Shown in pieces: positions 4,601 to 63,083 of a stretch of DNA of 64,000 bases (positions within the stretch are counted from its first letter, which is position 1; each line of letters starts with the position of its first letter). The translations under genes were made by a program, and so were the position numbers. The stretch lies in assembly GCF_002843315.1 (NCBI RefSeq), contig NZ_MVDD01000015.1:36105-100104 (forward strand). The letters run 5' to 3'. The notes under the pieces are model-generated. The model was not told the DNA's origin. It was given only the letters and a program-made list of their open reading frames with translations, and ran no database searches. This DNA is from Labilibaculum filiforme (lineage in GTDB: Bacteria > Bacteroidota > Bacteroidia > Bacteroidales > Marinifilaceae).

Positions 4601-5822
4601 AGAGAAGATTTTAAATAATCTCTTGAATAATGCATTCAAATTTACCGAGTCGGGCAATACTATTCAGGTAGAATATAGCTGTGAGGATAGAAATTTACTA
4701 ATAAAAGTATCGGATACCGGACGAGGAATTGCACAAGACGATTTGCCATTTATTTTCGATAGGTTTTATCAGTCGCAACACAAACATGGCGCATATACTG
4801 GAGGATCAGGAATAGGATTAGCATTTACCAAACGATTGGTGGAGATGCATTATGGATCTATTAAAGTAGAGAGTGAATTAAATTCGGGAACTACCTTTAC
4901 TGTTTCTATGCCAATAGTAGAAGAGAATGCATCGGTTGATCTTCAAATTAAAGAAAAAGAAATTTTAGAAATAGAAAGGAAACACGATGAGATAGTTCCA
5001 GCTGTAAGTCAGACTAATCTTTCTGAAATAAAAGTAGGAGGAGACTTTTCGGATTCCTGCATTTTTCTGGCCGAGGATAACGATGATATGAGAGATTTCG
5101 TAGCATCTAGTTTGTCTAAGTTTTTTAAGGTAAAATCGTTTACCAATGGACGAGAATGCTTAAAAGCAATGGAAGAAGAGTGGCCCGATATTGTTATTAG
5201 CGATGTTTTAATGCCCGAATTAAATGGGTTAGAATTATGCCGATCCATAAAATCAGATATTAAAACGAGTCATATTCCGGTAATTTTATTAACAGCTTGT
5301 GCAACTATCGAGGATCAGATAAAAGGAATAAAAGAAGGTGCTGATGCCTACATTAAAAAGCCTTTTGACATGCAACATTTGGTTGCTAGAACCGAATTTT
5401 TATTGCAAAATAGGAAACAGTTACGCCAGAGGTTTCAAATTGATATTCCTTTAAGTCTTGATAAAAATAAAGACAAGGGAAATGATACTTTGTTTTTGGA
5501 GAAATTGTACCAATTAATGGCCGGCAATTTAGATAATCAGGATTTGGATTTGGACAGTTTTGCCAAAGAATTATTTTTAAATCGAACTCATTTTTACCAA
5601 AAAGTGAAAGCAATCACGAATCAAACTCCATTTGAACTTTTAAAATCGTATCGATTAAAAAAAGCTGCCGAATTTTTGGTGCAAAACCAATTATCCGTTA
5701 ACGAAGTGTATTTGATGACTGGTTTTAAAAGTCGAACTCATTTTAGCAAATTGTTTAAGGAGAAGTATAATGTTACTCCAGGAAAATTTGCAGAGGAATC
5801 AAGCAAAAAATACTCCGAATAA
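1698..5822 (+). CDS. hybrid two-component system sensor/response regulator (HTCS), PUL regulator
   Basis: About 1374 residues. Order of parts: N-terminal signal/anchor; a periplasmic double beta-propeller of Reg_prop repeats (WFGTYEGLNRYDGY, LWIGTDEGI, IWLGADSDGLFRV and others); a Y_Y_Y domain; a transmembrane helix near residues 805-827; HisKA with phospho-acceptor His861 (SNISHEIKTP); a HATPase domain; a receiver with Asp1169 (VISDVLMPE); and a C-terminal AraC-type HTH. This is the one-protein HTCS architecture that controls Bacteroidota PULs after binding a specific oligosaccharide in the periplasm. ATG at 1698 is preferred over an in-frame TTG at 1689 because the signal peptide follows it directly. 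The gene lies just upstream of, and in the same direction as, the enzyme blocks, so it is the likely activator of the whole locus; its binding sites are unproven (see ACGATTGCG motifs). Confidence 0.95.
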   Translation: MPTKIYILIILLIFTLNESFGVVKKLESSQQLTISEGLAHNGVTCILEDSRGYLWFGTYEGLNRYDGYELKVYKNTIDKDLLASNRVRAIAEDSKGNLWIGTDEGITIYNYSQERFQHIFTNKLYNNKMRGPIVRSILINEDKGVVLCVTEGDGILVFKDDNSFSKQYLLASKDLDLEFYDAIELDKSNYLFATSGGPVHLNLESGKMILCQEPGYNFNNSLTKIDDNTILLCLDFGIAILEYQISNKKITLKLKGTYLQSESFKTASIDHYRNLWLGTLNDGMIRIENADLIKNGKAFKQSRFNAGKSTLRSSCFAPITKSGCWYGTFNEGIFHFDMEDNPFGKFNIEMGYEFGLTSNLVTHFSALDKDRVFITATRGGIALFNTTEKKFEPLPFHLSDNDKGNITSVFVDSKKNIWMKMMSEDGIYRARKGNQKVEKVVGNTIPAGIGLRSFSEDKKGNIWIGSADNVYEICMNAKGEVQEVILLNDHPFFKNNKLSLIRSVYVDPVYDFIWLGADSDGLFRVHTKGNGELEDLTIDQYLNDKKNKLSISGNFVSSIIRLPNKDLWIGTEGGGICKVLNSDKEPEFVAFSEKNGLSNNAVKNILYDDEYNLWITTNIGLNKFDTKDFRFRKFSEVDGLPFEDFWFASCKLPNGIMMQSGLDGFCYYNPVDLPDVEDLPIIEFGDLKLFNKLILPGDSVNGRVLLNERLNEQENIELNYNENVFSVEVRSLHFSTHDNHFIKYQLLPINDEWVEVTSDQRNIYYSGLQAGDYELNVMASNSLKQWTEPRKLKIIITPPFWETTVAYISYILLLFLIVYLVMFYILRFQSLKHNLQIEKLEKDNVKEVNLAKLRFFSNISHEIKTPITLISGPVDLLLDRFKNNADVKEKLELVQRQSKKISKLVDQVHDFQKSDANQLKIHYSTFGFSSFLKDLLSDFEFMAKNSNKNLEVKTSCSSIFVTVDKDKLEKILNNLLNNAFKFTESGNTIQVEYSCEDRNLLIKVSDTGRGIAQDDLPFIFDRFYQSQHKHGAYTGGSGIGLAFTKRLVEMHYGSIKVESELNSGTTFTVSMPIVEENASVDLQIKEKEILEIERKHDEIVPAVSQTNLSEIKVGGDFSDSCIFLAEDNDDMRDFVASSLSKFFKVKSFTNGRECLKAMEEEWPDIVISDVLMPELNGLELCRSIKSDIKTSHIPVILLTACATIEDQIKGIKEGADAYIKKPFDMQHLVARTEFLLQNRKQLRQRFQIDIPLSLDKNKDKGNDTLFLEKLYQLMAGNLDNQDLDLDSFAKELFLNRTHFYQKVKAITNQTPFELLKSYRLKKAAEFLVQNQLSVNEVYLMTGFKSRTHFSKLFKEKYNVTPGKFAEESSKKYSE

Positions 5823-27610: not shown

Positions 27611-27702
27611 ATGAAACGAGCCATGAGAATACTTCTCACACACGCAAGAATGATTAAGTCTGGTGAGTTCCATGTGGCAAATAAAAATCAAATTATAAAC
27701 CC
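27611..27702 (+). promoter_or_regulatory. diverged single copy of the structured leader element before the FAD oxidoreductase
   Basis: This stretch aligns from end to end with the tandem units at 61982-62351. Conserved blocks are ATGAAACG, CCATG, ACACAC, AATGATTA, TGGTRAGTTCCAT, and AAATAAAAATCAAAT just before the start codon. Where the tandem copy has the hairpin GTGT/ACAC, this copy has an unrelated but equally self-complementary hairpin, GAGAA (27625-27629) with TTCTC (27633-27637). That points to conserved RNA structure rather than mere sequence. As in the tandem array, the element ends exactly at the downstream ATG. Confidence 0.55.
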
Positions 27703-61689: not shown

Positions 61690-61981
61690 CGGTGATTTTT
61701 TAGTGAGATGTAAAATTAGAAATTATAAAACTTTTAGAGGCGATAAAAGAAGTAAAGTTTTATGTCGCATTCCTATGCTTCTCCTAGTATATTTTTCCAG
61801 CGACTTTATTGGCTTTTAAGTTTTTGTTAAAAATAAGCTATTGAAAGAATAGCATAATTTATAACTTAGGGATATTTCTTCGTGATATCAGGAAAACTCA
61901 GTTGTTTTTGTTTCCCTTTTTAATTTCACGAAGGAGTAATAATATTTTTGTATAAAAAGATAATTTGGAGGAGAAAGAGCT
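61690..61981. other. intergenic region with promoter for leader array
   Basis: No gene. TATTTTTG at 61943-61950 fits the -7 consensus TAnnTTTG exactly and would start transcription a few bases before the first leader unit. GGAGGAG at 61967-61973 resembles a Shine-Dalgarno sequence 8 bases before the ATG that opens that unit. The minus-strand promoter of the PPC lipoprotein is also here. Confidence 0.5.
61943..61950 (+). promoter_or_regulatory. candidate -7 box of the glyoxalase leader transcript
   Basis: TATTTTTG is an exact match to TAnnTTTG, placing the start site just upstream of the repeat array. No matching -33 element at normal spacing was seen. Confidence 0.4.
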
Positions 61982-62351
61982 ATGAAACGTCCATGACAAA
62001 GGTGTTTTGACACACAGGGAAATGATTATCCCAACATGGTAAGTTCCATATGGCAACTAAAAATCAAATAATAATCATATGAAACGTCCATGTACAAAGC
62101 TTTCTACACACAGGGAGATGATTATATGGTAAGTTCCATATGACAAAAACATAAAGTAATAATCATATGAAACGTCCATGACAAAGGTGTTTTGACACAC
62201 AGGGAAATGATTATCCCAACATGGTAAGTTCCATATGGCAACTAAAAATCAAATAATAATCATATGAAACGTCCATGTATAAAGCTTTCTGCACACAGGG
62301 AGATGATTATATGGTAAGTTCCATATGACAAAAACATAAAGTAATAATCAT
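61982..62351 (+). repeat. 2 x 185-bp tandem array of a structured leader element
   Basis: Two 185-bp copies (61982-62166, 62167-62351) differ at only two positions. Each copy is two related units: A (97 bp; 61982, 62167) and B (88 bp; 62079, 62264), so the basic element occurs four times. Every unit starts ATGAAACG and ends ATAATCAT. In unit A, CCATG (61991-61995) pairs with CATGG (62035-62039), enclosing hairpins GTGT/ACAC (62002-62013) and GGGA/TCCC (62017-62032); a palindrome CCATATGG follows. ATGATTAT in the second hairpin is also complementary to ATAATCAT next to the following ATG, which could hide the start site. One of the two differences between copies (A to G at 62108 versus 62292) keeps a possible pair as G-U. 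The last unit ends exactly at the glyoxalase start codon. A diverged copy is at 27611. Confidence 0.75.
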
Positions 62352-62741
62352 ATGAAATACAAATTAGAACACGCATGTATTCGAGTAATGGATTTAGACA
62401 AGTCGTTGGAATTCTACAAAAAAGCATTGTCTTTAGAGGAAGTAAGAAGACTGGATTATCCTGATTATAAGTTTACCCTGGTGTATTTGAGCGATGAAGA
62501 TAAAAATTTTGAAATAGAATTAACACATAATTATAATCCCGAGAAACCTTACGAGATGGGAAATGGATTCAGCCATTTTGCATTAACCGTGAGTGACTTG
62601 GAAAGTTCTTATGAATTTCATAAAAATATGGGGCTCGAAATTACAGCGCTTAAAGGGCTGCCCGGTGAAAAACCTAAATATTATTTCATTACCGATCCTG
62701 ACGGATATAAGATGGAAATTATTAGAGGGGATGAGCTTTAA
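62352..62741 (+). CDS. glyoxalase I-like VOC-family protein
   Basis: 129 residues. The vicinal-oxygen-chelate fold has two beta-alpha-beta-beta-beta modules. All four metal ligands of glyoxalase I are in place: His7 (EHACIRV), Glu56 (FEIELTHNY), His75 (GFSHFALTV) and Glu122 (GYKMEIIRG). Glyoxalase I isomerises the hemithioacetal of methylglyoxal with a thiol; since Bacteroidota often lack glutathione, the thiol partner is uncertain and no gene symbol is given. The ATG is the last in a series of five ATGAAA starts created by the tandem leader units. The unusual 370-bp leader suggests that its expression is tightly controlled, perhaps by a small molecule or stress. Confidence 0.85.
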   Translation: MKYKLEHACIRVMDLDKSLEFYKKALSLEEVRRLDYPDYKFTLVYLSDEDKNFEIELTHNYNPEKPYEMGNGFSHFALTVSDLESSYEFHKNMGLEITALKGLPGEKPKYYFITDPDGYKMEIIRGDEL

Positions 62742-63040
62742 GTGAGAGGTGTTAAACATTTTTATTTCAGATGCTCTTAAAAATAAAACACCAAATGATT
62801 TTTTAAATTGTGGGAGTAGTAATTTTAGTTCTTAGGCGGAAATAGAAGTCTTTCGAATGGGCATGAATGAGTTTCTCTTTCACCGTTTTGTAGTAGCCAT
62901 TTCAGGTCGTTTTTTTGTCTTGTTTTTATACTTTTAAAGCTACAAAAAGCATCTTAAACCGCAATATTTAAGTAAATATAAGGCAAAATAAAAGCGACTG
63001 TATGGCGTGCAATCGCTTAATAATCAGTAATCTTACATTG
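62742..63040. other. intergenic region with weak terminator
   Basis: No gene. GGTGTT (62749-62754) pairs with AACACC (62787-62792) and ATTTTT (62758-62763) with AAAAAT (62779-62784), followed by ATTTTTT a few bases on, giving a weak terminator for the glyoxalase. The rest holds nothing recognised. Confidence 0.4.
62749..62804 (+). terminator. weak intrinsic terminator after the glyoxalase
   Basis: A two-part stem (6 + 6 bp with internal loops), then AAATGATTTTTT. The A-T-rich inner stem makes it weak. Confidence 0.35.
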
Positions 63041-63083
63041 TCGGGGCGAGAAGATTCGAACTTCCGACCCCACGCCCCCCAGA
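63041..63083 (-). tRNA. 3' half of a tRNA-Pro(GGG) gene: attachment-site fragment
   Basis: On the minus strand, the acceptor strand CGCCCCG plus discriminator A ends at 63041, preceded by an intact T arm (GGAAG, loop TTCGAAT, CTTCT), a variable region and an anticodon loop CTGGGGG with GGG at 34-36. The acceptor strand would need CGGGGCG at the 5' end, the C1-G72 start typical of tRNA-Pro. That 5' half, the D arm and the 5' side of the anticodon stem are absent. A 3' tRNA half cut at the anticodon loop is the usual product of tyrosine-integrase insertion into a tRNA gene. By orientation, the element and the intact tRNA should lie to the right of this window. Confidence 0.7.

Follow-up and report, generated by a model that had tools for sequence, protein, structure and literature searches.

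A probably mobile repeat at start codons precedes a glyoxalase gene in Labilibaculum filiforme and recurs across the Bacteroidota

The array ahead of the glyoxalase gene and its family

The window analyzed here is a stretch of 64,000 nucleotides from Labilibaculum filiforme, and all features placed by window coordinates lie on its forward strand. A gene of the glyoxalase/dioxygenase superfamily (62352..62741; Pfam Glyoxalase, E 1.2e-18) is preceded by an array of four units spanning 61982-62351, with lengths of 97, 88, 97 and 88 nt: units 1 and 3 (61982..62078 and 62167..62263) are of type A, while units 2 and 4 (62079..62166 and 62264..62351) are of type B, with a short second hairpin. The sequence and a repeat search agree with the original prediction on this A-B-A-B arrangement, which consists of two 185-bp copies (61981-62165 and 62166-62350) that are 99% identical, with two differences. 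Each unit of the array opens with ATGAAACG and closes with ATAATCAT, and the last stops at the start codon of the glyoxalase gene, abutting its ATG at 62352. The motif GGAGGAG, presumed to be the native ribosome-binding site of this gene, is found at 61967..61973. A diverged unit that stands singly elsewhere in the window (27611..27702) abuts the ATG (27703) from which a 640-aa frame is read. Elsewhere in the window, the sequence GGGGCGAGAAGATTCGAACTTCCGACCCC at 63040-63083 resembles the 3' half of a tRNA; ARAGORN calls no tRNA in the window, and this sequence is possibly the remnant of an integration site.

The units belong to a repeat family with a unit length of about 90-120 bases, found in scattered genomes across the phylum. 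In the host genome the 185-bp pair has at least 56 matches (40 of 80 candidates were scored), and the units form at least 43 arrays, each made up of one to four copies; two of these arrays lie in the window. Among named genomes an exact 22-base core was located in 53 stretches, every one from Labilibaculum, Marinifilum or Marinifilaceae, and blastn detected matches in 17 of 40 near relatives, the host counted. A covariance model built from 30 diverse units (R1) placed the family in 125 of 393 genomes and 82 of 207 genera of the order, and in 20 of 395 genomes and 17 of 171 genera of a phylum sample, the host genome being counted in both and the threshold (E 0.01 per genome) allowing about four chance matches per search if the rough E-values hold; ten candidates were scored per genome, which makes copy numbers lower bounds and the lack of a match weak. 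This search, together with a comparison with Rfam, had been named as a check in the original prediction. There was no Rfam match at gathering scores in the window or in the loci of 20 relatives, a permissive search of 61850-62400 returned sub-threshold families only, and no description of the repeat was found in Rfam or in the literature searched by title and abstract.

Copies differ in their apparent age. Genome G275 has nine full or nearly full copies with 99-100% identity, which points to recent amplification, and the copies in genome G553 are at most 87% alike, barring the query copy and a few short partial matches. Long variants (G275, L186-L190, L201, L203) retain both ends around a stretch of GATGATGTGATGATGCGA-like repeats that can reach a few hundred bases. 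The idea that partial units are the ends of a longer element was discarded, given a single weak partial match in the examined loci and long variants in G275 that, by eye, contain simple repeats; so was carriage by phage, with one viral contig holding a 20-base core and no unit around that core in the inspected stretch. In L055, L084, L086, L116, L128 and other Labilibaculum units, the guide region (see below) holds a nested hairpin insert of the TCCCGAAACAAGTTCGGGACAGGC type, apparently a second small repeat. At L035:4989-5173 and L089:4002 a unit stands in front of GAAAGTCCAGAGGGTGTAAGTCCC, a sequence also present in another species that, we presume, may belong to a group II intron-like repeat. 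Among the host loci, a comparison of neighboring frames (at least 90 aa, more than 40% identity) gave no recurrent neighbor gene beyond two two-locus pairs; a cluster covering nine loci consists of frames read through the repeat itself.

Covariation and the folded unit

An internal strand of the form TTC-CATNTG, here called the guide, pairs with the unit's own 3' end and the start codon (CANATGAA). In unit 1 of the window the guide TTCCATATG lies at 62044..62052 and is complementary, with one bulged C, to CATATGAA at 62076-62083, a pairing that covaries; in unit 4 the same guide TTCCATATG (62319..62327) is complementary, again with one bulged C, to CATATGAA at 62349-62356, a segment which includes the start codon of the glyoxalase gene. 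The variable base of the guide is paired in 160 of 167 parsed units vs. 138 expected (148 A/T, 10 C/G and 2 G/C), a count in which 11 of 178 units were not parsed and those fetched through the exact 22-base core have A by selection. In a column-pair scan of alignment A1 (at least 80% paired, two pair types), guide position 76 with end position 108 ranks first. A structure of 13 pairs on A1, located by eye and with the column-pair scan, scored above all 500 shuffles in three of five measures; in the other two, double-change pairs and pair types, it did not exceed them, and RNAalifold predicted no pairs on A1.

For 73 order- and phylum-level units the structure score was 0.260, a value biased upward because they were collected with the covariance model, compared to 0.082 for shuffled and at most 0.068 for slid controls. 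The guide is perfectly matched in 57 of the 65 parsed units from this set, in five versions (8 of 73 were not parsed), and the pair sets CATCCG/CGGATG and CATACG/CGTATG are present although the training alignment had no C-G there. The stem P1, whose arms in unit 1 are CCATG (61991..61995) and CATGG (62035..62039), covaries as well: CCATG/CATGG, GCAT/ATGC, AATGCCCA/TGGGCATT and AATGGCCA/TGGCCATT all occur among relatives. Compensatory changes thus exceed both shuffled and slid controls, as in a structured nucleic acid, and the conserved structure proposed for the array finds support in the covariation of its relatives.

The fold first suggested for unit A, with three stems, was borne out in part. 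Its stems do appear in the minimum-energy fold and P1 covaries; however, the stability of unit A does not exceed that of shuffled sequence (z -0.21), and the case for its fold comes from covariation in relatives instead of energy. The two B units have z values of -1.52 and -2.25. The second hairpin, GGGA/TCCC, was set aside: it is fully paired in 99 of 151 parsed units, and its paired fraction of 0.858 lies only just above that of the shuffles (mean 0.833, maximum 0.856). A switch had also been proposed in which the loop pairs with the unit's end. Complementarity between ATGATTAT and ATAATCAT does exist in the window, and of 177 units 97 are perfect, all with one sequence pair, 63 have a mismatch and 17 lack a parsable loop; the tails vary (ATAAACAT, ATAAACAG) while the loop stays ATGATTAT, and with no covariation between them we abandoned the switch. 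Another pairing, between the guide and the start codon itself, is supported instead.

Junctions, start codons and empty sites

Arrays in the host run into ATGAA at their 3' end, and AT precedes the first GAAAC in 40 of 42 arrays, the printed ones starting with ATGAAAC except L013 (CTGAAAC) and L028 (AAGAAAC), which have CT and AA, respectively; for this count L019, L037 and L038, where the parser chose an earlier GAA, were entered as AT from the letters, and one of the 43 arrays was left out. The base after the 3' ATGAA is A in 39 arrays, T in two and G in one, and L017, L027 and L031 have ATGAAT or ATGAAG at the 3' side vs. ATGAAA at the 5' side. Since this base varies, any duplication would comprise GAA at most. 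These letters are read most simply as a cut that separates AT from GAA, the latter possibly being common to both ends; this reading is suggested by five sites (L013, L028, L017, L027 and L031), and mainly by the odd sites L013 and L028, which could be later mutations. A long target duplication, suspected at L034 where the upstream flank has a unit tail, was dismissed once the flank had been recognized as a diverged unit of greater age. The element also differs from a classical MITE: its ends, ATGAAACG and AATCAT, are not inverted repeats, and no more than three bases (GAA) could be duplicated.

With ATGAA at both ends, precise removal of a unit would restore the native gene. One might therefore imagine that the unit is taken out of the RNA by splicing, or passed over by ribosome bypassing, with the native leader and ATG restored in the message. 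We consider this highly improbable: the downstream gene already has a complete start codon, which makes removal unnecessary, and none of the ribozyme or intron families in Rfam matches the repeat.

With arrays collapsed, 32 of 43 host sites are start-like, with a frame of at least 60 aa opening from the ATG in question; the remaining 11 are ATGAA elsewhere outside long frames, and frames of at least 100 aa contain none of the 43. The DNA retrieved with these sites has a further 1745 ATGAA, of which 163 are start-like, 307 are outside frames and 1275 are inside; start-like sites are therefore in excess even relative to ATGAA outside reading frames (32/43 vs. 163/470; Fisher P = 6e-7), and the interior of frames is avoided (0/43 vs. 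1275/1745). By eye, two of the 11 non-start sites, L011 and L020, have another ATGAA start within about 16 nt downstream. A cruder gene-caller scored the 43 sites as 20 starts, 20 intergenic, one near a start and two inside called genes; the frame-based count is preferred because this caller seems to misplace the starts of secreted proteins. The start-codon excess beyond what ATGAA predicts could mean retention by selection; targeting fits the counts equally.

A start codon at the head of each unit raises the question of whether the unit encodes a short upstream peptide coupled to the gene. Open frames of at least 20 codons do run from the unit's ATG in 59 of 173 units, 18 of which reach the terminal ATGA overlap; yet 50 of 173, the type A units of the window among these, stop within six codons, and the frames shift between units. 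We give this reading the least credence of all those considered.

Comparison of flanks over the examined loci identified bare sites in related genomes with no net base gained or lost (L041/L083, L035/L089 and L103/L033). The window site itself is, by eye, bare in genome G003, with GAGGAGG seven bases ahead of the ATG; in the window, the similar GGAGGAG seems to have been displaced by the array to a position 370 nt further from the glyoxalase start codon. For a LUD-domain gene, 10 close orthologs (76-100% protein identity; 24 of 40 genomes gave any match) are divided into five with a unit and five with a bare ATGAA. In a one-gene tree of LUD sequences the bare G004 groups with the carriers G006 and G002, and this nesting suggests precise loss. 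A second unit is present in L053 at one ATGAA where L122 has a single unit, and array size differs at other orthologous sites too. Clean empty sites in related genomes imply that the element moves or moved recently, as judged by the comparison of sites. Dispersed copies, fixed ends and empty sites in relatives are together the marks of a non-autonomous mobile repeat in the wide sense, and of the roles originally suggested for the array, the one sustained by these copies, by the empty sites and by the fixed ATGAA junction is that of a small repeat that has inserted itself where a gene starts.

In 30 host arrays, 25 of 43 pairs of adjacent units have a tail in common, against 11% of random pairs, and nine of 43 have a body in common, against 1.2%; 17 of the 43 share the tail alone and one shares the body alone, with arrays L019 and L034 as examples. 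New bodies seem to take on the resident tail. Plain tandem duplication does not account for this pattern, nor does plain insertion.

Structured units in tandem before a coding region invite comparison with leader RNAs, and glycine-type riboswitches occur in tandem. Unlike those, this repeat is dispersed, is missing at the same sites in relatives, serves no single pathway among the genes scanned and has no Rfam match. The scan covered 11 downstream genes, of which one is in the window, nine are at other places in the host and one is in L. euxinus. They encode glyoxalase, GH2, 2-hydroxyacid dehydrogenase, URO-D-like, zinc alcohol dehydrogenase, sugar transporter, CGGC, AtuA, ArsR-type and LUD proteins and one product without a match. 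Neither a coherent downstream pathway nor a known aptamer was found; with unrelated downstream genes and 11 of 43 sites not start-like, neither the riboswitch suggested at the outset nor a glyoxalase-specific leader is supported.

A broader alternative takes the element mainly for a cis-regulatory leader RNA that passes between genes and is kept for translation control, in which the guide hides the start codon and a signal frees it. An effect on translation is plausible, since the guide stem would include the start codon, and the excess at start codons beyond what ATGAA predicts is in keeping with such a role. So is the LUD locus, where in all nine non-identical pairs conservation is higher in the unit (0.938-0.989) than in the 100 bp upstream (0.725-0.941) or in the coding sequence (0.841-0.941), which fits a function there. 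This extra conservation, however, comes from one locus, at which an independent insertion in G001 is possible, and other orthologous pairs show no excess of the unit over the gene (L106/L125, 0.979 vs. 0.985; L084/L097, 0.907 vs. 0.975). Where the guide varies most, G-U accounts for only 3 of 70 paired cells, which also speaks against this reading, as do the mixed downstream genes, the sites away from starts, the bare sites at the same genes in relatives and the lack of an Rfam match. On balance we judge regulation as the chief role to be unlikely.

A proposed route of movement and related elements

The reading we prefer, with a probability of roughly 0.68, is that the array is a non-autonomous mobile element whose folded strand would find AT/GAA, mostly at start codons, insert there and rebuild the codon. 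The guide is complementary to the unit's 3' junction and, via ATGAA, also to its 5' junction and to any ATGAA target; its pairing would in this way pick the target and both cut sites, as the guides in IS200/IS605 elements do. An HUH/Y1-type or similar enzyme would act in trans on the single strand, cutting at AT/GAA, and the last two bases of the element would rebuild the ATG. Because units begin with the GAA they seek, new units would land beside old ones and head-to-tail arrays would result. Insertion would push the native leader away from the gene, translation would start from the element's A-rich tail, and the start codon would be partly held in the guide stem. Single-strand transposition of the IS200/IS605- or REP-like kind, by an enzyme in trans, is probably the mode of movement; we favor it because TTC precedes the presumed cut at both ends on the bottom strand and the guide lies 5' of the stem. 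Accounts of IS608 (PMC5934647) and of REP elements (PMC6006769) give this layout.

No mobilizing gene was found among the candidates examined (Y1, TnpB and reverse transcriptase). Y1 transposases (PF01797) number six in the host and are present in 18 of 20 chosen carriers, and 15 of 22 genomes that lack a model match have them too; genome G599, a carrier rated 100% complete with nine matches, has no Y1 hit. Among 36 Y1 loci a model match occurs in two: L280, where it appears to belong to a neighboring gene, and L285, where it is marginal. No unit lies within 1.5 kb on either side of the six host Y1 genes, and at these loci the element does not share its ends with an autonomous IS200/IS605 copy. 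Four of these six genes match the subclass 1.2 signature and the other two escaped the pattern. Several different short palindromes are seen by eye around the host Y1 genes (L047-L052). TnpB had no match in 20 of 21 genomes and reverse transcriptase none in 11 of 21, the host being among the 10 that have one. In 20 further regions there was a model match in L323 and a 16-bit match in L324; of the subclass-2.6-like loci, L325, L326, L330, L333 and L338 had no model match, and L324 had only its 16 bits. In L323 the element (2154-2246 and 4867-4959 (-)) lies inside two paralogous, subclass-2.6-like and RAYT-like (NHVH) genes, a non-start target. Guide and end of the first copy (CTTCTG and CAGAAGAA) have changed together and are matched; in the second, paralogous copy they are not fully matched. 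By eye, other palindromes surround the L323 genes.

These observations bear on a competitor, in which the repeat is of the REP type, or derived from IS200/IS605, and has a resident Y1 (RAYT) transposase as its mover, perhaps one from the "atypical" subclass 2.6 that occurs in Bacteroidetes; it would then be a diverged representative of a kind already described. The bottom-strand layout, the frequency of Y1 genes in carriers and the copies inside the two L323 genes are in its favor, and subclass 2.6 genes in Bacteroidetes are described as flanked by atypical structures with genomic copies (PMC6006769). It must contend, however, with a carrier lacking any Y1 hit (G599), with the subclass 1.2 signature and other palindromes at the host Y1 genes, with other subclass-2.6-like loci where the match is absent or 16 bits, with the other palindromes around the L323 genes, and with units in which a GTAG/GGAG-type foot was not seen. 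We regard it as a real possibility, though one on which we would not wager.

Known systems resemble the element without coinciding with it. PATEs are non-autonomous derivatives of IS200/IS605 single-strand transposons, and insertion here is likewise precise and next to a short target of fixed sequence. Complementarity and covariation would be consistent with a guide of the IS200/IS605 type, one that pairs with the letters of the cut site. As in IS608, stem-adjacent guide letters would pair with cut-site and target letters (PMC5934647, in its treatment of that element). Unlike IS200/IS605, the pairing of about eight bases between guide and end covaries, the target is ATGAA, for the most part that of a start codon, both ends would be served by a single stem, TnpB is missing from the matches in nearly all genomes searched and no embedded transposase was seen in the examined loci. 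With REP/RAYT systems, including subclass 2.6 (PMC6006769, as far as its description extends), the element has in common its small size, mostly intergenic location, many copies, guide-bearing fold and occurrence in Bacteroidetes. It is distinguished from REPs by a length of 90-120 nt, a variable interior, head-to-tail arrays, a fixed ATGAA junction and the want of a GTAG foot; it is rarely beside RAYT genes here, with model matches in two of 36 Y1 loci (one marginal), and inside them in L323. CGTC-tagged palindromic repeats, according to one description, also seem to lack a dedicated transposase and are reported in Bacteroidetes among other phyla (PMC3733652). Units in the window do have CGTC at the stem foot, whereas CGTC is found in about five of 65 order- and phylum-level rows, others having CGAGCC, CATCC or TGCCC; most units at these levels thus go without the tag, and the element is longer than the 20-40 bp of REPs and bound to start codons.

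Beyond the array itself, the wider proposal is that these are phylum-wide start-codon-seeking elements, in which a DNA guide reads AT/GAA, the codon is split and rebuilt, the leader is replaced by a portable initiation module, and arrays record successive captures; this we advance tentatively, at a little below even odds. If true, the Bacteroidota, a phylum with abundant gut and marine members, would harbor a widespread and apparently unnamed mobile repeat that lives in compact genomes without breaking genes, entering the start codon and restoring it. Such a repeat would be another case, beside IS608, of target reading by base pairing, with a guide that has visibly changed along with its site. 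It would also explain structured leaders in 5' regions that otherwise seem unrelated, each insertion being a natural leader-swap experiment.
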